64,000 nucleotides of DNA. It comes from Verrucomicrobiaceae bacterium E54 (GTDB taxonomy: Bacteria > Verrucomicrobiota > Verrucomicrobiia > Verrucomicrobiales > Akkermansiaceae). A program made the position numbers and the translations under genes. Location: the NCBI GenBank assembly GCA_022548915.1, contig JAKZES010000021.1, forward strand, positions 1 through 64,000, written 5' to 3'. The notes under the pieces are model-generated. The model did no database searches. It saw nothing but the letters and a program-made list of their open reading frames with translations, and had not been told where the DNA came from. Below, one piece after another: positions 17,235 to 48,856 of the stretch. Numbering within the stretch: position 1 is the stretch's first letter; each line of letters begins with the position of its first letter.

Positions 17235-20200
17235 CTAGTCGAGCAGTGGCTGAAGCGCCGCGAACCACTTGTCGGCCATCTTGGCCGCACCGCCTTCGGT
17301 CGGGTGGACCTGATCGGCCACCGTGTCGGACACGGGATCCCAGCCGTCGGCCTGGTTCACGATGATCACCGGCTGCTCCGGCGAATCGAGGTCGGTGGCG
17401 ACTTCCGTCAGGCGGGTATTCAGGGCCGGAATGTAGGAATACTTCGGCAGCTTCGAGCTGGTGATGACCTGGGCGAGCAGGATGACCACGTCCGGATTGT
17501 GGGTGCGGCAGGTGGCGATCATCGATCGGGTCGCCGCATCGACCTCGTTGACGATGGAGGCCTCGCCCTGGATGTCGGCGAAGTAGTTGTGTCCCGCATG
17601 AATGAGAACGATGTCGGCGATATGAGCGGGAAAGATCGTGGCCAGGTTGGCGGCGACCTGGGTCGCGTTCTGTCCACTGTAGCCCTCGTGCTTCAGGGTC
17701 ACGCCCTGTTGGGTGTTGGTCTTGCTGCCGACGAACTCGTAACGATAGCCGGCGGTGGTGAGAAGGCCGTTCAGGACCGGTCGATAGACGAAGTAGCCCG
17801 TGCCGCCTTCCGTGATCGAGTCGCCGACGCACATGATCCGGGCCTTGGGCTCGGTATTGGTGGCGATGTAGAAGGACCGGTCCTCGGCGGGCGTCGATTC
17901 CTGGAGGGGAATCTCCGATCCTGAGGCGGGAAACGCGTCCGCGAACCGCTGCTCCCAGCGCTTGCGGTACAGCGGACCCTCGAGGTCACTCGAGCGATAG
18001 ACGAAGTATGGGGACGATGCCGGCCCGGTGAGAAGCAGATCGACATTCGCTGCAGGATCCGCCGAGACAATCTTCAGGCCCAATGCAGCGGGCGCGGTGA
18101 CCGTGATGGTGGTGTCGTCCAGAAGGGCCGGGTCGCTGACGAGCGGGTTGCCCGACGGATCCCGGATGTCGGCGGCGGTGGGTATGCTCAACCGCAGGGT
18201 GCCCTCGTTGGTCGGCGTGACCACCACGGTGAAGATCCCTGGCGAGGCCTCGGTGATGGCGCCAAAGTTGACGTTCGCACTGCCCGCATTTGCAAAGTCA
18301 GCCGCGCTGACGGTGCCCTCGTTGATGTCCTCGCTGAACTCCACGGTGTACGTCACCGGAACATCGACCTCGACGGATGCGCCTCCCCGGTCGTCAGTGA
18401 TGCCAACCAAGGTGGGAGGGTCGGGATCCGGGTCCGCTTGCGCCACGCTGCCGCTCACCGTGATATTGTCCCAGCGAAGGATGTCCGTGAATAGGGGCGG
18501 CGCGCTCGACGTGGCATAAAGACGGAACGTGATGGATGCCAAACCGTCATAGGAACCGCCCGAGAGATCGAGCGTGGCAGACTCATAGGGGGTGCCTACC
18601 GTTGCAGGATTCGCCGAATAGTTTCCCGGAATGCTGCTCACGAAACCATCGAGGCTCGATCTCACTTCGAAAGTGAACTGCGAACCTGCCTGGGCCGCCT
18701 GAACGTAGTAGTCGAAAGCCAACTCGGTGAGATGGAGTGAGTAGCCGCCGACCGCGGTGATGGTGAATTCGATGTAGCTCGTCCCGGCAGTGTCGCTGGG
18801 GCCGCGACCGAAGTAGTTGCCGGCGGTGGACCGACCGAACGAGGCCGAGCTGCCCGATGTCCACCCCGCTCCGGTCATGGTGGACGAGCTCGTGTTGGTT
18901 GCCTCGGTGGTCGGATTGTCCAGCGATGCATCTTCGAAGTCATAGAAGACGATGCTCGGGCTGGGGGTTTGGGTCGTGATGCCGATCACGAGCGCCGGAT
19001 TGGTCTGAAGATTCGGGGCGGTGGCGTCATCCTCGGCCACAAAGTAGACGTCGTAGGTGGTGCCGGGTGTCAGTCCGGTGATGGCTGCCGTGCTCTCGGT
19101 GTCGGCGCTCAAGGCGATGCTGCCACCGGCGATGGCGGGACTGTTGCTGGAATCGTCGCCTGCCTTGACTTGAGCGGCCGAGGGAGCCGGATCGCCATCG
19201 GCGACGACCACGAAGTAAGCGGTGCCGGTCTCGTCAATCCGGGCGCGTGCGGTGGCACCAGTGGTGGTGACCCCGTCGACCTGCGGCCAACCGGCGATCC
19301 AGGCAGGTGGCGTGGTGTCGGCCATGGTGACGGTGATGATAGTGTCGTCCAGAAGGGCCGGGTCGCTGTCGAGTAGGTTGCCCGAAGGATCCTGAATGTC
19401 GGCGGTGGTCGGGATGCTCAACTGCAGCGTGCCTGAGGTGGTCGGCGTGACCACCACGGAGAAGATCCCCGGCGAGGTTTCGGTGATGGTGCCGAAGCTG
19501 AGGTTCGAACTGCCCGCATTGGCAAAGTCAGCGGAACTTACCGTACCTTCGTCGATGTCCTCGCTGAACTCCACGGTGTAGGTCACATCGACATCAACCT
19601 CAACGGACGCGCCTCCCTGGTCGTCGGTGATGCCAACCAAGGTGGGCGGAGAGAGATCCGGACCAACAGGGGTGTAGGTGAAATCCACGTTGTCGAAACG
19701 GATCGTGTCGTTGATCGAACCGAAGCCGATCTGCGCGTTCGCAGAATCAAAGGTGAAGCCGGTCACCCCGACGGTCAGTATGTCGGTGCTGAAGTCGTTG
19801 ATCGTGATGGTAAAGTCGCCCGTGGTGCCGCCGGTCGGGGTCCAGGTGACCGTGGCGCGATACCAAGTGTCGTCAGAAATGGTCGCGCCCTCTGAAGCCA
19901 GTACGTCACTTGTCCCATCGGAGGTTCCGTCCTGGATGATGCCGGCGATGGCATTCGGATTTCCTTCCGTGATGCGTGCGTAAAGCAATTCGCCTGCCGA
20001 GGTGCCCGTGATCCCGTTGGCCACGTCGCCGATGATGAAGCCGACGTCATCGAAGCCGGCTTCGTTGGGCATCAGGAAGTCGAAGGTGCCGGAAACCGCG
20101 TTGGACAGGTCGATTGCCGCCGTATTGACCAGATAAGCTCCGGGAAGCCCGTTGTTGCCGACGCCAGCGGTGGCGGACACTTGTCCTGCAAGACCCGCAC

Positions 20201-20405
20201 TTCCCCCTGCTCCGTTGCTTCCGGCTCCGGCCGACGAAGTTGCGTAAGTGGCGGTGCCGGCCGTCTGGACCAAGCTCCAACCGGCCGGTGGCGTGTTGCT
20301 CCCAGCGGTCGAGGATTCGAAATCTTCGTCCAGCGTGATCTGTGCATCGAGCGTGGAAGTCAGGCAGCCAGCCAGAACGGCGAGTGCGGTTGTGAGATGT
20401 TTCAT
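17235..20405 (-). CDS. Large exported protein with repeated beta domains and C-terminal SGNH/GDSL hydrolase
   Basis: 1056 residues with signal peptide MKHLTTALAVLAGCLTSTLDAQ. The order is a lectin-like beta-sandwich (residues 25-245), a SwmB-like Ig repeat (about 252-345), an FN3-like segment ending YDVYFVAEDD, a second beta-sandwich, a second SwmB-like repeat (about 661-760), then an SGNH hydrolase. The latter has GDSITEG (block I Ser) near 858, HAGHNYF (block III Asn) near 934 and DQVHPTEGG (block V Asp/His) near 1033. It is probably an esterase that deacylates a polysaccharide. The two SwmB repeats are nearly identical, a recent internal duplication. The start is at the signal peptide, not the upstream in-frame codon at 20489. 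Confidence 0.85.
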   Translation of the reverse strand: MKHLTTALAVLAGCLTSTLDAQITLDEDFESSTAGSNTPPAGWSLVQTAGTATYATSSAGAGSNGAGGSAGLAGQVSATAGVGNNGLPGAYLVNTAAIDLSNAVSGTFDFLMPNEAGFDDVGFIIGDVANGITGTSAGELLYARITEGNPNAIAGIIQDGTSDGTSDVLASEGATISDDTWYRATVTWTPTGGTTGDFTITINDFSTDILTVGVTGFTFDSANAQIGFGSINDTIRFDNVDFTYTPVGPDLSPPTLVGITDDQGGASVEVDVDVTYTVEFSEDIDEGTVSSADFANAGSSNLSFGTITETSPGIFSVVVTPTTSGTLQLSIPTTADIQDPSGNLLDSDPALLDDTIITVTMADTTPPAWIAGWPQVDGVTTTGATARARIDETGTAYFVVVADGDPAPSAAQVKAGDDSSNSPAIAGGSIALSADTESTAAITGLTPGTTYDVYFVAEDDATAPNLQTNPALVIGITTQTPSPSIVFYDFEDASLDNPTTEATNTSSSTMTGAGWTSGSSASFGRSTAGNYFGRGPSDTAGTSYIEFTITAVGGYSLHLTELAFDYYVQAAQAGSQFTFEVRSSLDGFVSSIPGNYSANPATVGTPYESATLDLSGGSYDGLASITFRLYATSSAPPLFTDILRWDNITVSGSVAQADPDPDPPTLVGITDDRGGASVEVDVPVTYTVEFSEDINEGTVSAADFANAGSANVNFGAITEASPGIFTVVVTPTNEGTLRLSIPTAADIRDPSGNPLVSDPALLDDTTITVTAPAALGLKIVSADPAANVDLLLTGPASSPYFVYRSSDLEGPLYRKRWEQRFADAFPASGSEIPLQESTPAEDRSFYIATNTEPKARIMCVGDSITEGGTGYFVYRPVLNGLLTTAGYRYEFVGSKTNTQQGVTLKHEGYSGQNATQVAANLATIFPAHIADIVLIHAGHNYFADIQGEASIVNEVDAATRSMIATCRTHNPDVVILLAQVITSSKLPKYSYIPALNTRLTEVATDLDSPEQPVIIVNQADGWDPVSDTVADQVHPTEGGAAKMADKWFAALQPLLD

Positions 20406-20456
20406 GACGGTGTGAGATGAGTTGCGGGGGCGATGAGCAGGCTGCACAGACAATTG

Positions 20457-20479
20457 AGGCCCACACGATGTGCGGGCCT
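20457..20479 (-). terminator. Hairpin between the discoidin-like gene and the SGNH gene
   Basis: On the minus strand AGGCCCGCAC-ATC-GTGTGGGCCT forms a 10-bp stem with one G-T pair. There is no clear T-run, so it may be a weak terminator or a processing/stability element. Confidence 0.4.
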
Positions 20480-20513
20480 CCCTGAGCAAGGGGTTCGTGA
20501 CCGGGCAGCGCCT

Positions 20514-21167
20514 CTAGCGACGGCGGCGCAGCAAGCCCAGCAGGCCGAGGCCACCCAGGAGCACGGCACTTGGCTCGGGAACTGCGGTAAACTGGACCTC
20601 ATTCAAGCCAACATAGCCGGTGGCATTGCCATCGAATGCCGAATCCACCTCAAACCGGATGTGCCTGACTGCGGTTGTGGGCAAGTTGATGCCGGTCTGG
20701 GTTTCGAAATCAAAGCCGGTGTCAGCCGCTCGTTGAGTGGGAGTCTGGGCGAAATTCACGTTCGTGCCGATTTGGGTCCAATTGGCCGCACCCGCCCCTT
20801 CCGGATCTCCGGGCAACGCGATTGTGGACACGTAAACGTCCAGTTGATTGATACCCCAATCAATGTAGCGGTTCGCGTTCCAAACTTGAATGGAATCCAG
20901 AACATATCCGGCACCCAAATCGAAAGCGATCCAGGTATCCGCTCGGGCCACAGTGCTGTTAGTGAACCACTCCGTCCCAGTGTCACCGTAGTTCGCGGTG
21001 ATGCCTGAGCCATCGACGACAAATTCATTCTCGTAGGCAGCATTGGTGTTGGTGTCCGACGCGGTGACCGTGATGCCCGAGCCATCAATCAGGGTAGCAG
21101 CGTGGCTCGCAATCGGGCACGTGCCGATCACTGCGAGGAAAAAGAGGAACCGGTTTTTTGATTTCAT
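20514..21167 (-). CDS. PEP-CTERM protein with F5/8-type C (discoidin-like) domain
   Basis: 217 residues: signal peptide (MKSKNRFLFFLAVIGTCPIASHA), then a discoidin-like beta-sandwich recognisable from WIAFDLGAGYVLDSIQVWN and the final IRFEVDSAFDGNATGYVGLNEVQF. The C-terminal sorting tail is VPEPSAVLLGGLGLLGLLRRRR. Exosortase-family enzymes are expected to process that tail; none is encoded in the window. The domain suggests carbohydrate or matrix binding. Its upstream region contains copy 1 of the shared operator/promoter element (21215-21270), so it is a probable target of the XylR-like regulator. Confidence 0.88.
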   Translation of the reverse strand: MKSKNRFLFFLAVIGTCPIASHAATLIDGSGITVTASDTNTNAAYENEFVVDGSGITANYGDTGTEWFTNSTVARADTWIAFDLGAGYVLDSIQVWNANRYIDWGINQLDVYVSTIALPGDPEGAGAANWTQIGTNVNFAQTPTQRAADTGFDFETQTGINLPTTAVRHIRFEVDSAFDGNATGYVGLNEVQFTAVPEPSAVLLGGLGLLGLLRRRR

Positions 21168-21214
21168 GGGGCGTGGCGATTCGTAGGCCGTATGACCAAC
21201 AGGGACTGTGAAAT

Positions 21215-21270
21215 ACCCTATTCGCGATTCCGCGCCTCCGGCAACACGTTACAGCGTTTTTTGCTTCGCT
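21215..21270 (-). promoter_or_regulatory. Operator/promoter copy 1 (XylR-like regulon)
   Basis: Read on the minus strand, the 12-bp dyad ACGCTGTAACGT (21246-21257) is followed after one base by TTGCCG (21239-21244). After 18 bases comes TAGGGT (21215-21220). The start codon of the PEP-CTERM gene is about 48 bases further. The AGCGAA..AAAAA stretch upstream of the dyad is shared with copies 2 and 3. Confidence 0.65.
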
Positions 21271-21290
21271 CTAAGCGTCGATCGATTACG

Positions 21291-21614
21291 ATGACCAACA
21301 TGCCCCACCGCGTCGCATCCTGATTTTCACGATTCTGGAGCACACCGCACGGCGGCAGATGGTGCAGGGGGTGGGGCGTTATTCGCGGGAAGGGCACCGC
21401 TGGCAGCCAATCATTCCGTGGGCGGATCTGGACGTGTGGGCCCTGCCGGAGGGGATGAATGCGGATGGCGTGATCGCTTTTCCGCATACCCGGGAGAGGA
21501 TCGATTTTCTGCTCGAATCGAAGTGCCCCGTGGTCTGTGTGGGCCCGCACTTTTCCGAAGTGGAGCTGCCACAGGTCGATTGGGATGACGAACTGACGGG
21601 GCAGATGGCGGTCG
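21291..21614 (+). pseudogene. Truncated, frameshifted copy of the XylR-like regulator
   Basis: From about 21314 the sequence aligns codon for codon with the intact regulator from its residue about 6 (RILI..LEHTARRQMVQG.GRY.REGHRWQP). It stops matching after the DWDDELTGQMAV segment at 21607-21614. The ATG at 21291 is out of frame with the body, so the copy is both frameshifted at its start and cut at about a quarter of its length. The upstream operator region is duplicated as well. No ligand-binding core or DNA-binding domain remains. Confidence 0.85.
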
Positions 21615-22079
21615 TCAGGGCCGTGCTGCTGAAACTGAGGGCCTGGGTGTCATCGCCGGTCGTGGGGGTGAAGCTGACGGTGGCCAGGACGGTGCCGGGG
21701 TCGGGTCCCGGTGCGGCCGTTCCGTCCAAATCCGAGGCCAGCGAGTACAGCGTGAAGGTCTGCGGCGACGAGGAAGTGCTGTTCTCGGCGAGCGGAGCTC
21801 CGGTCACGAAGAAGGTGAGAGTGGTGGCGCCGGCCGCAGCGGATTGACCCGACAGGTCGAAGGTCAGGAAGGTCCGGGCGAAGTCATCGGTCCCGATCGG
21901 ACCCACGTACAGGTTCCCGACGTAGTCCCTGTCGAGGGGCCCAGGGCGAACCTGCCCGCGGCGTCGTAGGTGGGAAGGAGGACTCCTCCGTGAGCCGATG
22001 GAGTCACGAGGGAAAAGAGCACTGCAGCGGCATGGGAAAGGCCGCATGAGCTGATGGAATGGTTTTTGTTGGGATTCAT
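21607..22079 (-). pseudogene. Frameshifted, truncated secreted protein (relative of the 24351 gene)
   Basis: On the minus strand the piece starts MNPNKNHSISSCGLSHAAAV, a signal peptide. It continues VLLPTYDAAGRFA, then shifts frame near 21930-21950 into DYVGNLYVGPIGTDDFARTF. The latter aligns with GNLGVGPVSGSDDYFRSYLT in the protein encoded at 24351, as does TFTLYSLASDLDGTAAPGPD. Similarity ends at ALTTA where the regulator fragment begins. Gene start and signal peptide survive; the C-terminal half is gone. Confidence 0.8.
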
Positions 22080-22085
22080 GAGTGG

Positions 22086-22116
22086 CAATGAAAAGCCGAC
22101 GGTGAACCGTCGGCTT
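22086..22116 (-). terminator. Terminator of the PEP-CTERM gene at 22164
   Basis: A perfect 10-bp stem AAGCCGACGG/CCGTCGGCTT with a 4-base loop (22093-22116) is followed on the minus strand by TTTTCATT. It lies 48 bp past the stop of the PEP-CTERM gene and shields it from the pseudogene downstream. Confidence 0.75.
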
Positions 22117-22163
22117 CGTTGGACAGCGGGGCAACAGCCACTGATCCGGCTTACGGCACACCC

Positions 22164-22877
22164 TCAGACGTGCCTCCGACGGCGCAGCAACCCGAGGAAA
22201 CCTAGCCCAGCCAAGAGAGCGATCGAGGGTTCGGGAACGACCGCGCCGTTGAGGGTAAAATTGTCAATCCGGTGAATGGGCTGGGTAAGAGTGTTTTCGT
22301 TGTCGTAGAGGTAGATTCGAAACTCGATTGGTCCGGCAAGACCCTGGTAAGCGGCACCGCTGAGATCGATGTCGAGATTCTCGTAGTAATAGCCAGTGGC
22401 GCCCTGATCAGCCGCCGTAAAGCTCTTCGATCCAAGCACGTCAGGCACCGTGAAGCCGTCGACACTCGAAAACACGGAAGCACCCAAAGTCTTTCCAATG
22501 CCATCAGGGACAGATACCCCGTTCAGCGTATATCCCAGATCGACCGTGAGGCTGGTAAGGTTCAGTTCGAATCCGGTATCGGGGGTGATGGTGACCGTGA
22601 CGTATTGACTGTCGCTGATGGCACCTGAGAGGTTGCTTTCACTGGTTCCATTGACGCGGGCGAATATGTTGCCACCAGAGCTGAAGCCCGTGTTGGTTGT
22701 CATGGCAGCATTGAAGCTGAAGCTCGAAGCGGTCAAATCACCTGCCGAGGCGGTCACCGCCGCCCTCGACGCCGCGTCACTCCCGGTAAATTCGTAAGAG
22801 GCCAACACGACCGCTTGTGCTCGGGAGACCAAGACAACGGCCGCTGCCGCAATGAGGAGAGTGGAAATGGATTTCAT
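22164..22877 (-). CDS. PEP-CTERM protein, beta-sandwich, function unknown
   Basis: 237 residues. The signal peptide is MKSISTLLIAAAAVVLVSRAQA. The middle is a beta-rich domain (YVTVTITPDTGFELNLTSLT, later IEFRIYLYDNENT and HRIDNFTLNG) of the kind found in many verrucomicrobial exported proteins and related to lectin-like folds. The tail is VPEPSIALLAGLGFLGLLRRRRHV, a PEP-CTERM sorting signal. The start at 22877 follows AAGGTC and fits the predicted promoter (22904-22961), which gives a leader of about 20 nt. It is divergent from the XylR-like regulator and probably controlled by it. No enzymatic motif is visible. Confidence 0.85.
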   Translation of the reverse strand: MKSISTLLIAAAAVVLVSRAQAVVLASYEFTGSDAASRAAVTASAGDLTASSFSFNAAMTTNTGFSSGGNIFARVNGTSESNLSGAISDSQYVTVTITPDTGFELNLTSLTVDLGYTLNGVSVPDGIGKTLGASVFSSVDGFTVPDVLGSKSFTAADQGATGYYYENLDIDLSGAAYQGLAGPIEFRIYLYDNENTLTQPIHRIDNFTLNGAVVPEPSIALLAGLGFLGLLRRRRHV

Positions 22878-22903
22878 GAGCTTGACCTTAAAAATCTGCG
22901 CCA

Positions 22904-22961
22904 AGCCTAGCGACCTCCCCAATTCGCCGCAACACGTTCCAGCGTTTTTCCTTTCGCTTTT
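22904..22961 (-). promoter_or_regulatory. Operator/promoter copy 2 (XylR-like regulon; regulator/PEP-CTERM intergenic)
   Basis: On the minus strand the dyad ACGCTGGAACGT (22934-22945) is followed after one base by TTGCGG (22927-22932). A 17-base spacer and TAGGCT (22904-22909) come next. The dyad lies between the divergent PEP-CTERM gene and the regulator gene, so it could also serve autoregulation. Confidence 0.7.
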
Positions 22962-22987
22962 AGCGTCGATTGGCTGAACTTAAGCGC

Positions 22988-41392: not shown

Positions 41393-43180
41393 CTACTCGA
41401 CCGGGGGCAGCGGATCGAGTTTCTGGCCGATCTTCAAGAGCCTGTGGCGCAATCTTCCATAGGGCACGTCCTGCACCGGGAACTCCTCCTCCACCGCCAT
41501 CGCTGCCGCGACACCCGCCGATTCCCCGAGAATCATCCACACCGGCTCCATGCGGATGGAGGTCATGGCGATGTGGCTGGCCGAGCAGCAGACCGGCACC
41601 AGCAGGTTGGAGCATTCCCGCTTCCTGGGAACGATGGCTTCGTAGGGAATGGCGTAGCTGCCGTTCTGCTTTCCTCCGTCCAGATACAGGATGGAGAATT
41701 CCCCGCCCTGAAGCGCCACCTTGCCGTCAAGCGCCACGGTCGCGTAGGACCAGTCATCCACACCGTAGGAGGCGAGACCGACCGAGTGCTTTGGTGCGGT
41801 CTTTGCCTCCAGGTCCTTCTGGGTGACGACGTAGTCCGAGATCATGCGCCGCGCCTCGCGGACGTAGAGTTGATGCGGCCAGCCGCCGGTTTCATCAAAG
41901 TCGCCCCGGTCGAAGGTCAACTCCCGGGCCTGGGCCCGGAGCTTCGCAGGAACCACCGGATCGGTGCGCAGGAAATGGATCAGCTTGCAAAAGAACTCCT
42001 GGTGGAACTTCCAGATGGACGCCCGGGTGGCCCAATCGCCGTTGGGGTAGTTCTCCGAACTGCCGAAAATGGTGGTCGTCATCAGGGCACGGCTCAGGTT
42101 GGTGTCCGGCAGGCGCGGCCTGAGCCTGGAACCGGCATCCGCTTGTCGCGGCTTGAAGGTGTCGATGACGGGCTGCCCCAGGCGGTTGAAGGATCGGGCG
42201 GAATAGATGTCGACACCATCGCGCATGGCCCGGCGGAACAATTCAAACTCGGCGGGGTCGTAGCGGGCGGGCTCGGGGATCGCGATGCCCTCACCCCTGC
42301 GGTTGAACTTGTAGCGGAAGCAGTAGGCCATGGTCAGGCCGTCGGCGCTGCCCTCGGGGCCGATCTTTCGATCCTGAACGAAGGGAATGGTGCCGCTCCC
42401 GGGATCTCCCTCCTCGAGCCACGGGTCGATCTCGTAGAGCCACAGGTTGGGCCGCACCCCGGCGAGGCTCTCGCCATACTGCTCGCGCGACTCGCGGCCC
42501 CAGGTGTAGTTCGTGCCGCTCATCGCCAGCAGATCACCTTCGTAGGAGCAGTCGATGAAGACCCTGGCCCGGATGTGGACGGCATTGTGCGCGAGCGGTT
42601 CGGGGATCGGGCAGCCCGTCCGGTCCACCGGGGCATGGTCGAGCCAGATGGCCTGGATCGCGCTGCCTCCGGGAGAGACGCGGATGACCTCGCGCAGCTT
42701 GGCCGGGTCCTGGCGCGTGGCCGAGTGAATGGTGGTGTCGGTGAGTTGCACCTTGCCGAGGCGATGGTCGTAAATCACCTCGATCCCGTGGTCCTCCACC
42801 AGCTTGAGAAAGCGCTCACGGTAGGTCCGGTTGCTGTGACCGATCCGCGTGGTCTGGGAGTAGGTGCTGTTGCCGCCCGGCTTGCGGTCGGCGAAGTCGT
42901 CCAGCCCTTCGGTAAGGAACTTGTGGGTCGAACCTCCGACCGCCGCCTCGCGGCCCCAGTCGAGATGGTCGATACCGCCACCGGTCATACCGCCCAGCCA
43001 ACGGCTGGGTTCCACCAGGATGACCGTGGCCCCTTCCCGGCTGGCCGCCACCGCGGCCATCACGCCACTCGCCGTGCCGCCATAGACGCAGACATCGGCC
43101 TCGCGGGGAACAACGGGTTCGGCTGGCACACATGGGGCAAGAATCAGCAGCCCGGCGGCAATGGGTAAGAATGGCTTCAT
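41393..43180 (-). CDS. Exported FAD-dependent oxidoreductase (FAD_oxidored-like)
   Basis: 595 residues with a Sec-type signal peptide (MKPFLPIAAGLLILAPCVPA). VCVYGGTASGVMAAVAASREG is the dinucleotide-binding motif, and VEPSRWLGGMTGGGIDHLDWG continues the FAD fold. The later ARVFIDCSYEGDLLAMSGTNYTWGRES and LLVPVCCSASHIAMTSIRMEPVWMILGESAGVAAAMAV are family hallmarks. There is no twin-arginine motif, so the FAD would have to be inserted outside the cytoplasm. The gene follows the sulfatase with 34 bp between, probably one operon. Sugar-related substrate is inferred from context. Confidence 0.88.
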   Translation of the reverse strand: MKPFLPIAAGLLILAPCVPAEPVVPREADVCVYGGTASGVMAAVAASREGATVILVEPSRWLGGMTGGGIDHLDWGREAAVGGSTHKFLTEGLDDFADRKPGGNSTYSQTTRIGHSNRTYRERFLKLVEDHGIEVIYDHRLGKVQLTDTTIHSATRQDPAKLREVIRVSPGGSAIQAIWLDHAPVDRTGCPIPEPLAHNAVHIRARVFIDCSYEGDLLAMSGTNYTWGRESREQYGESLAGVRPNLWLYEIDPWLEEGDPGSGTIPFVQDRKIGPEGSADGLTMAYCFRYKFNRRGEGIAIPEPARYDPAEFELFRRAMRDGVDIYSARSFNRLGQPVIDTFKPRQADAGSRLRPRLPDTNLSRALMTTTIFGSSENYPNGDWATRASIWKFHQEFFCKLIHFLRTDPVVPAKLRAQARELTFDRGDFDETGGWPHQLYVREARRMISDYVVTQKDLEAKTAPKHSVGLASYGVDDWSYATVALDGKVALQGGEFSILYLDGGKQNGSYAIPYEAIVPRKRECSNLLVPVCCSASHIAMTSIRMEPVWMILGESAGVAAAMAVEEEFPVQDVPYGRLRHRLLKIGQKLDPLPPVE

Positions 43181-43214
43181 GCTGGTGGATGATCGGTGAA
43201 GGTGGGGCTTCGGT

Positions 43215-44756
43215 TCAGCGAGCTTCCTCAAGAAGCTGGTTCAACTCACGAACCCTGTCCGGTTCACGGTCCCATTGGTTCTCTTGCTCGGCGGGATCGG
43301 TCCGCAGGTGATAGAGTTGTCCGGGTGCGCCGGGGACCGGCTGGCTGTCGCGTGGCGGCGGCCAACCCCCGGAACCCCGGGTGCCGGCGATCAGCTTCCA
43401 ATCGCCACGGCGGATCGCGAGAACGCCGTGGCTCGAATGCTGGATCATCGAGCGCCGGGGCGGAGCATCGTCATGCACCTCGCCCAGCAGGACCGGCAAC
43501 TGGTTGACGCTGTCGCGTGCCCCTGCCTCCGGCATCGCCGGTGCCCCGGCCACCGCCGTCAGCGTGGCCACAAAATCCGTCAGGGAAAACAGCTGGCCAG
43601 CCTGCGTCCCGGCTTCGATCCGGCCCGGCCAGCGCACGATGAGGGGCACGCGATGCCCGCCCTCCCAGATATGGGCCTTCCAACCGCGAAGCTCCCCGTT
43701 GGAGGCATGGCCATGACGCTCGAACAGCCAGTTGCGCCCGGGCCCCGCCAGTCGTTTGCCACCCTCCCCGCGCTTGAAGTCGCCCGGCAGCGCGCCGTTG
43801 TCACTGGTGACGATGATTACGGTGTTTTCCCGCTGGCCGCTGGCTGTCAGCGCCTCGTCCACCTGCCCGACGATCCAGTCGAACAGCCACACGAGATCGC
43901 CGCGCGAGCCGGCCTTGCTCTTGCCCCGGGCGAACTCCGGCACCACCTCCTCGACACAGGGTTCATGCGGCGCGTTTGGGGCCAGGTAGAGGAAGAAGGG
44001 ACGCTCATGGTCCGCCGCCTGCCGGATGTAGGCGCGGGCCTTCCCGGCGATCACCAGATCGGCCCGCGCGTGGCTCCAGCCCTCCGCCGCCATGCCATGG
44101 TCCCCGTGGGGCACGGCCTGATGGCTGAAGCGGCTGGCCACGAAATGCTCGTCCTCGATGAACCCGTAGGGCGGCGCGCAGGTGCCGCAGCCCGCATTCC
44201 AGTACGCCTGATCGAATCCGACCGAAGTCGGCCCTCCCGTCACTGGTTTGCGGAAGTCCACCTCCTTCTCGCGGCTTGTCGGCCTGCCCTCCCGGTCGTG
44301 GAAGGTGGCGCCGATGTGCCATTTGCCGATGCAGGCGCTTCGATAGCCGCGCTCCTTCAGCAGCGACGGCAGGGTCGGCTCGCCGGGTTGGATCAACGGC
44401 GGGCTGTAGCCACCGATCACCCCCTTCCGTAGCGTCCGCCAGCCGTAGCGTCCGGTGATCAAGCCGTAGCGCGTCGGCGTGCACACCGCCGAGGGCGAGT
44501 GGGCATCGGTAAAGCGCATGCCCTCCGCCGCCACGCGGTCCATGTGCGGGGTCGGGATCCTGCTGGCTTCGTTGTAGCAACCGGGATCGCCGTAACCCAT
44601 GTCGTCGGCGAGGATCAACACGATGTTGGGCAGGCGCTCCCGCGGACTTTCCGCGGCTGCGGCCCACTCCGGCACCGACAGCGCGAGCAGCACCATCCCT
44701 GCCGCCAGTGGCCATGTCGCGGCAAGTCCGCCGGTTGATGGCTGGCTAGGATTCAT
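43215..44756 (-). CDS. Exported sulfatase (formylglycine-dependent)
   Basis: 513 residues with a signal peptide ending VLLALSVPEWAAAA. PNIVLILADDMGYGDPGCYN holds the Asp-Asp metal ligands. SAVCTPTRYGLITGRYG contains the CTPTR motif in which Cys (about residue 91) becomes formylglycine. VTSDNGALPGDFKRGEGGK carries the C-terminal Asp-Asn metal site. It hydrolyses sulfate esters, probably of a marine-type polysaccharide. No maturase gene (FGE or anSME) is in the window. It is placed between an exported FAD oxidoreductase and exported beta proteins. I use the ATG at 44756 since the upstream frame lacks a signal peptide start. Confidence 0.95.
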   Translation of the reverse strand: MNPSQPSTGGLAATWPLAAGMVLLALSVPEWAAAAESPRERLPNIVLILADDMGYGDPGCYNEASRIPTPHMDRVAAEGMRFTDAHSPSAVCTPTRYGLITGRYGWRTLRKGVIGGYSPPLIQPGEPTLPSLLKERGYRSACIGKWHIGATFHDREGRPTSREKEVDFRKPVTGGPTSVGFDQAYWNAGCGTCAPPYGFIEDEHFVASRFSHQAVPHGDHGMAAEGWSHARADLVIAGKARAYIRQAADHERPFFLYLAPNAPHEPCVEEVVPEFARGKSKAGSRGDLVWLFDWIVGQVDEALTASGQRENTVIIVTSDNGALPGDFKRGEGGKRLAGPGRNWLFERHGHASNGELRGWKAHIWEGGHRVPLIVRWPGRIEAGTQAGQLFSLTDFVATLTAVAGAPAMPEAGARDSVNQLPVLLGEVHDDAPPRRSMIQHSSHGVLAIRRGDWKLIAGTRGSGGWPPPRDSQPVPGAPGQLYHLRTDPAEQENQWDREPDRVRELNQLLEEAR

Positions 44757-44851
44757 GACATGAGACCGACTCGTCGGCCGCTGAGGACCCCGCACATGCT
44801 GCCCGGACCTTCAGCGATCGTTCGCAGCCATCCGCCGGCTTCCGGCACGGC

Positions 44852-45877
44852 TCATGGCAGCTTTTCGACGACCGCAAAGAAGCGCCGCGAATCGCCACCC
44901 CCCGGGATGCCGGTGAGCGAGTTGGTGTCGGGCGTGGCCTCGATATCGCCCTGATTTCCCCACACCGGCCAGGTCTCCGGCGGGGTTGAAAGGTCGGTCG
45001 CACTCACGAGATCATACACCCGGCCCGCCTGGCTGTTCCAGCTGAAGTCGTAGTGACCCGGAGTGTCCGCGCTGGCGACGATGGTGAGTTGCAAGGGCTC
45101 CGCCGCCGGGGCCGACACGGTGAGGTTCCTCAGGCGAAACTGGTCGGGGCCGGTCGTCCCGTCATTTCCATCATAGCCCGCCGCGCCGACGCGCCAGGCG
45201 TAGAAGTCATAGCCGGCCCCGACATCGATCTCACCGAGTTCGACGGTCGTGTATTGCTTGGGAACCTCCTTGGCACCGGCGATCCCGCTCCCCGTCTGGG
45301 CCACCTTGACGTCCAGAACCTTCACCGCATCGCGCTGGAGCCATCCATTGTAGAAGCTCGCATCCCCACCGTTGGCGCTCAGGACCGGACCGGTTTCCCC
45401 GGCATTCCACGCAAAGACCTCGAACCACAGGTAGAGCGGCCCGTTCGAATCCGCCCCGTGCGTCAAGTCATTCAGATACACGTCGACTTCGACGGTCTGC
45501 GGGGTGGTGGTGGCCCCGCCATCCTCGACGAAGAGGAGGTTCGCCCGCAGATTGCCACCGGCGGGATAACCCGGGATGTACTGCAGCACCTCGTTGCCGA
45601 ACGACTGCCAGACATTCAAGCCGTTCAGGATCCAGTCGCCCGTGCTCTTGTCCGTGTCGACGAAGGAATCATTGCCGCCGTCGGTGTCGAACTGGACCGT
45701 GCCGGTCGTGGTGTCGAGCCGATACTGGTGCCTCCCGTCGCCGCTCCACGGATCCGACAGGGTCACGGCCGAAGGGATGCCGGTCACCACGTCGGCATTG
45801 GCAGTGAAAACAAGGGATGACAGGGCGAGGGCGAAAAGCGGGCAGAGCGGCTTCATCGGCTGGAAAGCAGGTTTCAT
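44852..45877 (-). CDS. Exported protein, paralogue of the 46008 gene with a different C-terminus
   Basis: About 341 residues with a signal peptide (LCPLFALALSSLVFTANA). The first about 240 residues align almost completely with the protein at 46008 (shared TTGTVQFDTDGGN, DWILNGLNVWQSF, GYPAGGNLRANLLFVEDGG, YLWFEVFAWNAGETGPVLSANG). The DNA includes a 61-base identical stretch (45129-45189 and 46093-46153). After DQFRLRNLT it switches to a verrucomicrobial module (YDFSWNSQAGRVYDLVSATDL) instead of a PEP-CTERM tail. Function is unknown; a lectin-like fold is likely. The start may instead be the ATG at 45856. Confidence 0.8.
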   Translation of the reverse strand: MKPAFQPMKPLCPLFALALSSLVFTANADVVTGIPSAVTLSDPWSGDGRHQYRLDTTTGTVQFDTDGGNDSFVDTDKSTGDWILNGLNVWQSFGNEVLQYIPGYPAGGNLRANLLFVEDGGATTTPQTVEVDVYLNDLTHGADSNGPLYLWFEVFAWNAGETGPVLSANGGDASFYNGWLQRDAVKVLDVKVAQTGSGIAGAKEVPKQYTTVELGEIDVGAGYDFYAWRVGAAGYDGNDGTTGPDQFRLRNLTVSAPAAEPLQLTIVASADTPGHYDFSWNSQAGRVYDLVSATDLSTPPETWPVWGNQGDIEATPDTNSLTGIPGGGDSRRFFAVVEKLP

Positions 45878-46007
45878 GATGCTTTGGACTGAGGGAGGTT
45901 GGACAGAACGACGGGCTTGGGTGGGACAGCAGCGACGGTCGGACAAGGCGGCGGGTCGGGGATGGCACCCGGTATTGCGGGATCGTGGCGGGAACGCGGA
46001 AGCCGCC

Positions 46008-46838
46008 TCAACGGCGACGCCGCAAGCCGGTCGCCAGGCCGAGCAGCGCCAGACACAAGGCGGAGGACGGCTCCGGAACCGCGGTGATGTTGCTCAGGCG
46101 AAACTGGTCGGGGCCGGTCGTCCCGTCATTTCCATCATAGCCCGCCGCGCCGATCCGCCAGGCGTAGAAGTCATAGCCGTCGCCGACATCGATCTCACCT
46201 AGCTCGACGGTCGTGTACTCCGCGGGGACCTCCTTGGCACCGGCGATCCCGCTCCCCGTCTGGGCCACCTTGACGTCCAGAAGCTTCACCGCATCGCCTT
46301 GGAGCCATGGGTTGTAAATGCTCGCATTCGGACCGTTGGCACTCAGGACGGGGCCGGTTTCCCCGGCATTCCACGCAAACACCTCGAACCACAGGTAGAG
46401 CGGCCCGTTTGAATCCGTCCCGTGCGTCAAGTCGTTCAGATACACGTCGATTCCGACAGTCTGCGGGCTGATGGTGGCTCCCCCATCCTCGACGAAGAGA
46501 AGGTTCGCCCGCAGGTTGCCGCCGGAGGGATAACCGGGGATGTACTGCAGCACCTCGTTGTTGAACGACTGCCAGACATTCAAGCCGTTCAGGATCCAGT
46601 CGCCCCCGCTCTTGTCGGTGTCGACGAAGGAGTTGTTGCCGCCGTCTGTGTCGAACTGGACCGTGCCGGTCGTGGAGTCGAGCCGGTACTGGTGCTGCCC
46701 GTTGCCGCTCGTCGGAGCCGACGGGGTCACGGCCGAAGGAATGCTGCTCACAATGGCGGCACCGGCAGCCGCCGAGAACGCCGAAAGAGTGCCTGCGGCA
46801 AGCGCAAGGGTAATGGAGGTCGGGGCGGGGAAGCGCAT
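46008..46838 (-). CDS. PEP-CTERM protein, paralogue of the 44852 gene
   Basis: 276 residues with signal peptide SITLALAAGTLSAFSAAAGA and the same beta domain as the preceding paralogue: GQHQYRLDSTTGTVQFDTDG, DWILNGLNVWQSF, PLYLWFEVFAWNAGETGP, GYDFYAWRIGAAGYDGNDG. It ends VPEPSSALCLALLGLATGLRRRR, a sorting signal for the exosortase system. The intergenic space to the neighbouring paralogue is about 130 bp with no recognised site. The substrate is not visible. Confidence 0.82.
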   Translation of the reverse strand: MRFPAPTSITLALAAGTLSAFSAAAGAAIVSSIPSAVTPSAPTSGNGQHQYRLDSTTGTVQFDTDGGNNSFVDTDKSGGDWILNGLNVWQSFNNEVLQYIPGYPSGGNLRANLLFVEDGGATISPQTVGIDVYLNDLTHGTDSNGPLYLWFEVFAWNAGETGPVLSANGPNASIYNPWLQGDAVKLLDVKVAQTGSGIAGAKEVPAEYTTVELGEIDVGDGYDFYAWRIGAAGYDGNDGTTGPDQFRLSNITAVPEPSSALCLALLGLATGLRRRR

Positions 46839-46919: not shown

Positions 46920-47612
46920 TCACGCATCACGCCGACGGCGCAGGAGCATCAGCACGCCGAGAGTTCCCAACAGCGGGACCACCGAAGGCTCGGGGATGAC
47001 CTGAATGGTGCCCGCGAACGAGAGGTTGTCGATGCCGATATTCCAGCCGTCTTTGTTCTCGTAGGCATCCGTCGAAATCACAATCGTATTGGTACCGCTG
47101 ATCAGTGCTTCGCTGTCGGTGAAGCTCAGCGTCCCCCCGGAGGAAATCGTCGAAGTCGAAAGGGTCGCGTCAAAGGCGGTGCCGTTGACCGTGACATTCA
47201 TCGGGATGGCCCGGCCCCCGCCTTGGTTCGCCCCCGCGTTTGTCAGGCCTTGGTAACCGAACGATATCGAGGTCAGGGTGCCTGTCGCGCCGGCAGCCAA
47301 ATCAAACTGGAAGGTTGCCGCCCAGTCGCCCGTGTTCTGCACATTCAGGGCGGGCGCAAAGGCCTCTTTGCCATAACCGGTGGTGAAAAAACCGGCGGGA
47401 TCGAAGCCCGCATCGCTGTCGAGCAGTGTGTAACTTGCCGACGTGCCAGGAGTCACATTCACCAGGTCATCGCCCGTCCAGACGATGCCGGTCATGGTCT
47501 CGCTGGCACTCGACTTCGTCGCCGAGTCAAAGTTCGTCTCCGCAATCACGGCCGCATGGGCTGCCGGGGTGATCACCAGAGCTGCTGCCAGGGTAAGTGC
47601 TTTGTGATTCAT
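46920..47612 (-). CDS. PEP-CTERM protein, beta-sandwich
   Basis: 230 residues. Signal peptide MNHKALTLAAALVITPAAHA is followed by a beta-rich domain (LTSISFGYQGLTN, NTIVISTDAYENKDGWNIGIDNLSFAG) of the lectin-like type common in exported verrucomicrobial proteins. The tail VIPEPSVVPLLGTLGVLMLLRRRRDA is a PEP-CTERM signal. It is first in a minus-strand series leading to the sulfatase and FAD oxidoreductase and is divergent from the regulator at 47783. No catalytic motif is visible. Confidence 0.85.
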   Translation of the reverse strand: MNHKALTLAAALVITPAAHAAVIAETNFDSATKSSASETMTGIVWTGDDLVNVTPGTSASYTLLDSDAGFDPAGFFTTGYGKEAFAPALNVQNTGDWAATFQFDLAAGATGTLTSISFGYQGLTNAGANQGGGRAIPMNVTVNGTAFDATLSTSTISSGGTLSFTDSEALISGTNTIVISTDAYENKDGWNIGIDNLSFAGTIQVIPEPSVVPLLGTLGVLMLLRRRRDA

Positions 47613-47712
47613 GATTCGGGGGCGTGATTCAATCCTTGTGTCGTTCGGAGGGTCCGCGCAGCGAACCTCCGGTCGGCCTTGAAGAGGCTTTCGATTGCGG
47701 CTCAAGGGAAAC

Positions 47713-47745
47713 AGGGCCACCCCGGGATTCCAGAATTTTGGCCCT
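47713..47745. promoter_or_regulatory. Inverted repeat in the regulator/PEP-CTERM divergent region
   Basis: AGGGCCA (47713-47719) and TGGCCCT (47739-47745) form a perfect 7-bp inverted pair with a 19-base spacer, located 38 bases before the regulator start. It might be an operator, but a 7-bp GC-rich pair is not strong evidence in this genome. Confidence 0.25.
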
Positions 47746-47782
47746 TGCCCACTATCCTGTTTTCCCCTGTGCTTTGGGCGGC

Positions 47783-48856
47783 ATGGCGGAATGGAGACCG
47801 GTGTCGAAGAAGCTGCAGCTCGCCGCCTACCTGCGCGCGGAGTTGCAGGAGGGCCGGTGGCAGGGCCGGATGCCCGGGGTCATCCGGCTGGCCCGCGAAC
47901 TCGGCGCGTCGCGGGACCTGGTGGAAGAGGCGCTGCGGGAGTTGGAGCACGCCGGGGTGCTGCACGCCCAGGGACCGGGACGCGGACGGGCCATCGGTTC
48001 CGGGGTTCACCCGGCCGGCCAGCGGAGGTTCCGGGTGACGGTCCTTGCGGGGGACGCGGCCGACCGGAATTCGCCCATCATCTATCAACTGGTGCGCGCG
48101 CTGCAGGATGCGGGTCACCTGGCGGGTGTCGCGGGGAAGACGCTGGCCGGCATGAACGACAAGCCCGGGCGGGTGGCGCGTTTCGTCGAGCAGTCCGCCA
48201 CCGACGCCTGGGTGGTGATGTGCGCCACGCGCCCGGTGCTGGAATGGTTCGCGCAGGGACCGCGACCGGCATTCGCCCTGGCGGGCCGGGCCAACCGGAT
48301 CGCACTGCCGAGCGTCGCTCCGGACAAGCTGACGCCGATGCGCGCGGCGCTGCGGCACCTGGTGGAACTCGGGCACCGTCGGATCGTCCTGATGTCGCGC
48401 CCCATCCGCCGAATTCCGGATCCGGGCCTGACCGAGCGGACCTTCCTCAATGAACTCGAGGCGCAGGGAGTGGTGACGGGGCGCTACAACCTGCCGGACT
48501 GGACGGAGGGGGTCGAGGGCTACCAGGCGGGGCTCAGGTCACTGTTCCGAACCACTCCGCCCACGGCGATGCTGCTGGACGAAGCGTTGTTCGTGGTTCC
48601 CACGCTGCAGTTCTGCATGGCCAACGGCCTCCGGATTCCGCAGGACGTTTCGTTGATTTCGACCGACCCCGATCCGGCCTTCATGTGGAGCCACCCTCCG
48701 ATCTCGCACATCCGCTGGGATCTCAAGCCGATGATTCGACGCATCGTCCGGTGGGCCGACAAGGCCAGCCGCGGCCAGGAGGACCCGCGGAAGTCCCTGA
48801 CGAAGGGAAGTTTCGTCGAGGGTGCCACCATCGGCCCGGTGCCGAAGGGCCGGTGA
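47783..48856 (+). CDS. GntR/LacI-like transcriptional regulator
   Basis: 357 residues. The first about 75 are a GntR-type winged helix (KKLQLAAYLRAELQEGRWQG, IRLARELGASRDLVEEALRELEHAGVLHAQGPGRG). The rest is a LacI-type ligand-binding fold (LDEALFVVPTLQFCMANGLRIPQDVSLISTDPDPAF). Family members sense sugars and repress or activate neighbouring carbohydrate genes. Here the neighbour is the divergent exported-protein/sulfatase series, so regulation of that series is the natural inference. The ATG at 47783 is preferred over an in-frame upstream codon at 47624 with no domain match. It converges with map. Confidence 0.85.
   Translation: MAEWRPVSKKLQLAAYLRAELQEGRWQGRMPGVIRLARELGASRDLVEEALRELEHAGVLHAQGPGRGRAIGSGVHPAGQRRFRVTVLAGDAADRNSPIIYQLVRALQDAGHLAGVAGKTLAGMNDKPGRVARFVEQSATDAWVVMCATRPVLEWFAQGPRPAFALAGRANRIALPSVAPDKLTPMRAALRHLVELGHRRIVLMSRPIRRIPDPGLTERTFLNELEAQGVVTGRYNLPDWTEGVEGYQAGLRSLFRTTPPTAMLLDEALFVVPTLQFCMANGLRIPQDVSLISTDPDPAFMWSHPPISHIRWDLKPMIRRIVRWADKASRGQEDPRKSLTKGSFVEGATIGPVPKGR

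Follow-up and report, generated by a model that had tools for sequence, protein, structure and literature searches.

Two neighbouring minus-strand genes of a 64,000-nucleotide stretch of DNA from Verrucomicrobiaceae bacterium E54 (the window), here termed A and B, both encode proteins of the secreted type and share one mature body, which is followed by a PEP-CTERM tail in B and by a different module in A. At a probability of about 0.6, we favour the interpretation that the cell produces a single, probably glycan-binding body in two forms, one sorted by exosortase and the other unsorted and fused to fibronectin type III (FN3)-like or enzyme modules. The features of the locus are the following.

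46920..47612, minus strand: gene C, encoding another PEP-CTERM protein immediately upstream of B; frame open to 47720, likely ATG at 47612
46838-46008, minus strand: gene B, signal peptide (by eye), body and PEP-CTERM; likely ATG at 46838, frame open to 46916
46082..46768, minus strand: body of B, 90% DNA identity to the body of A, gapless
46011..46079, minus strand: PEP-CTERM tail of B, above the TIGR02595 cut-off
45856-44852, minus strand: gene A, signal peptide (by eye), body and predicted FN3-like module; ATG at 45856 (or 45877)
45118..45804, minus strand: body of A, from the local alignment with the body of B
44855..45127, minus strand: predicted FN3-like C-terminal module of A; the model (pLDDT 89.3) is a beta sandwich of five strands
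43215..44795, minus strand: sulfatase directly downstream of A (PF00884, E 2.3e-47)
41393..43231, minus strand: FAD-dependent oxidoreductase downstream of the sulfatase (PF12831, E 3.1e-79)

The best local alignment of A and B is a single ungapped block of 687 nucleotides (offset 964, 89.96% identity). Within it lie the 61 identical bases (61/61) at 45129-45189 and 46093-46153, with a mismatch at the very next base; the first-pass annotation had reported this run and the mostly common sequence around it, and its coordinates are exact. It had also placed a switch after the motif DQFRL.N(L/I)T, and this is borne out, A reading DQFRLRNLT-VSAPAAEP... and B reading DQFRLSNIT-AVPEPSSALCLALLGLATGLRRRR-stop, that is, the VPEPS end in B and a different module in A. 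The tail-side border of the block lies at ACC-G, whose G opens the codon preceding VPEPS of B. The comparison of substitution density across the switch, which had been proposed as a check, agrees: windows of 30 nucleotides at offset 964 hold 23-30 identities inside the block (28, 30 and 28 nearest the tail switch) and 6-13 beyond it (13, 12, 11, 9, 6 and 8). Toward the other end, windows over the signal-peptide region hold 27, 18, 15 and 7 identities per 30 nucleotides. Neither the 3' flanks nor the 5' flanks with the signal peptides align better than shuffled sequences, of which 268/300 and 75/300, respectively, reach the observed score. The notion of a swapped end thus holds for the C-termini, but it is not the tail alone that changes: the unit common to A and B is the mature body, set in two frames, each with upstream DNA, a signal peptide and a C-terminus of its own. 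Over the 228 codons of the block dS is 0.20 and dN 0.081, and from this dS we infer that flanks free of selection, had they been duplicated together with the block, would have kept an identity of roughly 80%. Promoter and terminator scans gave no more matches than in shuffled sequence.

The tail of B has the PEP motif, the hydrophobic stretch or helix and the basic end of PEP-CTERM, and scores 19.2 bits against TIGR02595 (cut-off 16; 24.6 bits in the six-frame search) and 19.6 bits, slightly under the cut-off of 20.7, against Pfam PF07589; the N-terminus of B, read by eye, is hydrophobic. No PEP-CTERM match is seen in gene A up to E 1 with the TIGR02595 and Pfam profiles. The genome has one match to the exosortase profile PF09721 (E 9.3e-50) and 49 TIGR02595 matches over the cut-off, the PEP-CTERM inventories being incomplete in that the C242 gene is absent from this genome's own list and the L097 gene from its list. 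The earlier proposal that related proteins are sent to different destinations by exchange of their ends hence keeps one half of its footing, a PEP-CTERM tail on B in a genome that encodes an exosortase, and loses the other, the module of A as the sorting alternative being unsupported.

The body of gene C has no homologue within the window up to E 1e-4. An origin of the B tail as a copy of the C tail by unequal duplication was considered and dropped, the two tails being just weakly similar: one comparison gives a score of 13 against a shuffle mean of 8.9, which 8/300 shuffles reach, and another a score of 20 against a shuffle maximum of 26. Such a weak likeness is not telling, since any two PEP-CTERM coding sequences may have it. 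With a sulfatase and an FAD-dependent oxidoreductase encoded after A in the same direction, the A/B locus fits a polysaccharide locus. Upstream of gene C a divergent regulator (47624-48856, plus strand) has, by eye, a GntR-type N-terminus and a LacI/XylR-like sensor; a regulator of similar appearance lies after an ORF that ends in the module in contig C144 (L007:1720-2823). The window also holds a second, weaker case of the arrangement at 17238-22979 on the minus strand. Here a PEP-CTERM protein (22167-22979) has a body similar to residues 518-690 of the 1092-residue GDSL-esterase ORF 17238-20513 (30% identity, E 1.3e-11), the similarity stopping at the PEP motif; between the two, 20517-21248 encodes another PEP-CTERM protein, whose F5/8-type match is below threshold.

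We read the 85-residue module of A as an accessory module with a predicted FN3-like fold. The model at pLDDT 89.3 was built from 20 sequences (a single-sequence model of A reaches 32.6), and its top 50 structural matches are mostly titled FN3 or FN3-bearing, at middling Z of 5.6-7.0; among the best are the xylanase CtXyl5A and the pectate lyases PelI and Pel3 (Z 5.9-7.0), and Foldseek gives E 0.2 or weaker. Gene A has no Pfam match up to E 1, fn3 included, 22 module sequences have none to Pfam fn3 up to E 0.1 and one weak match to DUF7397, and no PDB chain matches the module significantly by sequence. A profile of the module matches 60/145 genomes of the family at E 1e-6, with a maximum of 33 matches per genome. 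Loci were surveyed in two sets, with PEP-CTERM called by our own pattern: 50 hand-picked from the search lists, and hence non-random, with 44 module ORFs including that of the window, and the next 20 by rank, mostly of one genus and with several near-identical orthologues. The module is internal in 45/65 ORFs of these loci, which argues against a dedicated sorting tag; on this ground, and with a predicted FN3-like fold that has a xylanase and pectate lyases among its best structural matches, the earlier claim that the module is itself a sorting alternative is not upheld. In the genus g16 (e.g. G097, G051) modules of this type have expanded to more than 30 matches per genome in some species, and those in the loci examined are mostly internal, with about 170 residues after them.

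The first-pass annotation had suggested looking for similar switches elsewhere in the genome, and they are common. Under one rule for PEP-CTERM genes and controls alike (a homologue of the body over at least 100 residues within 6 kb), 18/47 PEP-CTERM genes of this genome (38%) have such a neighbour as against 16/141 control ORFs (11%; Fisher p 1.1e-4), the controls being the longest non-overlapping ORFs of 150-450 residues from the same regions rather than called genes, and 5 of those 16 having a PEP-CTERM partner. Two of the 49 PEP-CTERM matches were left out, C185 having no matching ORF and C216 a body below 100 residues. A genome of the same genus (G002, one contig) gives 10/27 (37%) against 4/91 controls (4%; p 4.6e-5), and the two genomes pooled p 2.5e-8. 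The homologues lie on the same strand in 26/26 and 15/15 cases (41/41 together) and across a gap of less than 400 bp in 21/26 and 12/15, and the homology ends at most five residues from the PEP motif in 24/26 and 15/15 (39/41). These counts include weak homologies, with 26-31% identity in 4/26 of the own-genome cases and 28-34% in 3/15 of those in G002; 29/47 and 17/27 PEP-CTERM genes, respectively, have no such neighbour.

By looser rules, our own PEP pattern over whole regions at E 1e-4 gives 25/52 ORFs, and within 6 kb 19/47 stand against 12/140 with no 100-residue limit and a smaller control target set. Approached from the side of the module, a PEP-CTERM paralogue lies in the region for 21/44 module ORFs of the hand-picked set (that of the window among them), always on the same strand (21/21), and for 8/21 of the rank-ordered set, where one paralogue has the opposite orientation; the common body is not directly before the module in 2/21 of the former and 6/8 of the latter. 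At E < 1e-10 bodies and homologues form 32 clusters, several of them spanning more than one locus, and the arrangement hence exists on many different bodies. The dS of 21 other own-genome pairings, a set that leaves out 5 of the 26 homologues, ranges from 0.24 to 1.96.

Every partner ORF listed for the two genomes is longer than its PEP-CTERM ORF. The few partners scanned include a SASA esterase, a GDSL esterase and a sulfatase, and those at L106 and L174 match no family. Several partners carry the body in mid-protein, starting at ORF residues 924, 599, 479, 463, 461 and 305. A second tandem pair, on C242, joins body, A-type module and SASA esterase in one gene and body and PEP-CTERM in the next. 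The body of its module gene is 63% identical to that of the PEP-CTERM neighbour and 40% to that of its counterpart in G066, and the C242 and G066 module genes are 66.6% identical after the body, which indicates that body and tail have had different histories here. Directly downstream of the C242 pair lies an ORF that by eye is transposase-like (L041:6025-7488, minus strand). For the F5/8-type loci (G053 and G152), the body of the large protein groups with its counterpart from the other species (91%), and PEP-CTERM and module bodies are mixed in the grouping. The large-protein body was thus inherited gene by gene, and such arrangements can be old. Concerted evolution was rejected as a general rule in view of these large-protein bodies and is kept for C242 versus G066. 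At L135:6543-12377 an ORF of 1945 residues begins with the body of its locus and continues with three lamin tail domain stretches and a CotH kinase domain, and L136 has a similar ORF of 1932 residues, incomplete at the end of the stretch.

Genes for FecR-type anti-sigma factors, which mostly adjoin ECF sigma genes (e.g. L041:307-2477 in this genome), also occur near PEP-CTERM genes: 10/18 FecR matches lie within 6 kb of any of 67 PEP-CTERM places as against 2.3 expected, and relatives offer examples at L104:10249-12236 and L135:2321-4215. The FecR protein ends in the body of the secreted proteins at three loci (C242, G066 and G053), that of C242 ending in the same body as the tandem pair there. 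Sensors with the common body are nonetheless not a general rule, the C-terminal domain being common to a neighbour in 5/18 FecR genes and a PEP-CTERM body being common to the FecR protein in C242 alone; the contig of the window has no FecR match. This calls to mind the Sigma-I/RsgI system, which serves polysaccharide sensing in Clostridium thermocellum, in that at some loci a FecR protein beside an ECF sigma factor carries the body of the secreted proteins. We take the sigma and anti-sigma families of the two systems to be different, and the phylum is another.

The bodies are probably glycan-binding domains. Some bodies of other pairs contain an F5/8 (galactose-binding-like) domain; that of A matches neither a Pfam family nor a PDB sequence at E values up to 1, and glycan binding by the A/B body is therefore a guess. 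A first scan of the genome contigs with the A/B body gave no relative, and among the 96 other genomes searched two have matches to it, all partial or weak. We infer a division of labour in which exosortase would process the tail of B, the body being thereby directed to the surface or matrix or kept there, and in which A, with no recognised sorting signal and its body followed by the FN3-like accessory module, would provide a soluble or matrix-associated copy. More generally, a small PEP-CTERM protein beside a longer same-strand protein that joins the body to FN3-like, enzyme or other domains is a recurrent design in this genome and its relatives, through which a cell would put one binding specificity both on its own surface and on those proteins that act on the polymer. 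The body behaves as a cassette, and the tail boundary, the unlike flanks at low dS, the mid-protein bodies and the split histories at C242 and G066 all fit its copying as a unit.

An unlikely account, if one that deserves real weight, is ordinary tandem duplication, in which drifting copies gained or lost one tail by chance and serve no paired function. The tandem, same-strand placement of A and B at dS 0.20 is what it would predict, most PEP-CTERM genes lack a body-sharing neighbour, and PEP-CTERM genes are described as turning over fast by duplication and loss in the part of PMC1569441 considered here. At dS 0.20, however, flanks and signal peptides should align, and they fail to. A body followed by a switch also recurs with other bodies, in 38% of PEP-CTERM genes here (controls 11%) and 37% in G002 (controls 4%); the homology stops by the PEP motif in 39/41 homologues, and several partners have the body in mid-protein. 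It is improbable, too, that the near-identical blocks act as a recombination reservoir through which neighbours convert each other and vary the cell surface in the manner of antigenic variation, the faintest of the alternatives by our estimate: the 61 identical bases within a 90% block and the differing histories of body and tail between C242 and G066 would suit it, but in G053 and G152 the bodies of the large proteins group by gene and not by locus, and a crossover between copies in direct orientation would be expected to delete rather than to switch.

Alternatively, the module of A could itself be a tag for sorting or secretion. It would then be comparable to the beta-sandwich C-terminal domain of type IX secretion substrates, which, as far as is known, always stands at the extreme C-terminus. 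Modules of the A family are in contrast followed by at least 100 residues in 26/44 ORFs of the chosen loci and 19/21 of the next loci by rank, and are N-terminal in two own-genome ORFs, both weak matches; the type IX component SprA (PF14349) has no match in this genome and none in the control genomes either. What speaks for tags of some kind is a FYRV-like signature within 18 residues of the stop in 27/36 complete partner ORFs as against 24/274 control ORFs, a signature picked after such tails had been seen and a count that leaves out five incomplete partners (three from this genome and two from G002); one partner with such an end, at L145, is a sulfatase. That the FYRV-like tails form one family with the A module is not established, profile comparison by hhalign of two other FYRV groups with it giving probabilities of 16% and 7%. 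A tagging role of the module is thus very doubtful. We regard as quite unlikely the broader variant in which the terminal, FN3-like FYRV end of the partners would be a second C-terminal address in Verrucomicrobiota, Akkermansiaceae systematically encoding pairs that give one binding body either the exosortase or the FYRV address, in some loci with a third copy as the sensor of an anti-sigma factor. The pairing of an exosortase-sorted body with an unsorted, module-bearing copy remains our preferred reading.

The pairs offer natural matched controls, in that one body occurs both tagged and untagged, usually one gene apart; more than a third of the PEP-CTERM genes tested in the two genomes become approachable through them, and the esterase or sulfatase fused to the body in some neighbours hints at the polymer. 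The module of A resembles by structure the FN3-like domains of polysaccharide-degrading enzymes, namely CtXyl5A (5g56), PelI (3b4n) and a C. thermocellum Fn3-like protein (3mpc), at Z 6.4-7.0, and differs from known FN3 domains in sequence, with no significant Pfam fn3 or PDB match; the matched parts of 5g56 and 3b4n we take to be FN3 domains. That tails vary between homologues is already known. The side-by-side pairing in one genome has no description in the literature searched, including the parts considered of PMC1569441, PMC3237569, PMC4960237 and PMC13174399, which is weak evidence of absence with subscription papers outside the scope. B shares its tripartite tail, and its genome an exosortase, with the PEP-CTERM/exosortase system (TIGR02595, PF07589; Haft 2006, PMC1569441). 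As far as the part of that paper considered here goes, little homology links PEP-CTERM proteins to known ones, their sorting role is poorly understood, and their genes stand mostly in single-gene operons, with no mention of a body-sharing neighbour; more than a third of the genes tested here have one. Likewise, the consulted portion of PMC3237569 describes homologues that differ in the presence or type of their C-terminal tail (GlyGly-CTERM, LPXTG or PEP-CTERM), which sometimes replaces a longer region, with examples that are family members across genomes, whereas in the present case both ends occur side by side in one genome and on many bodies.
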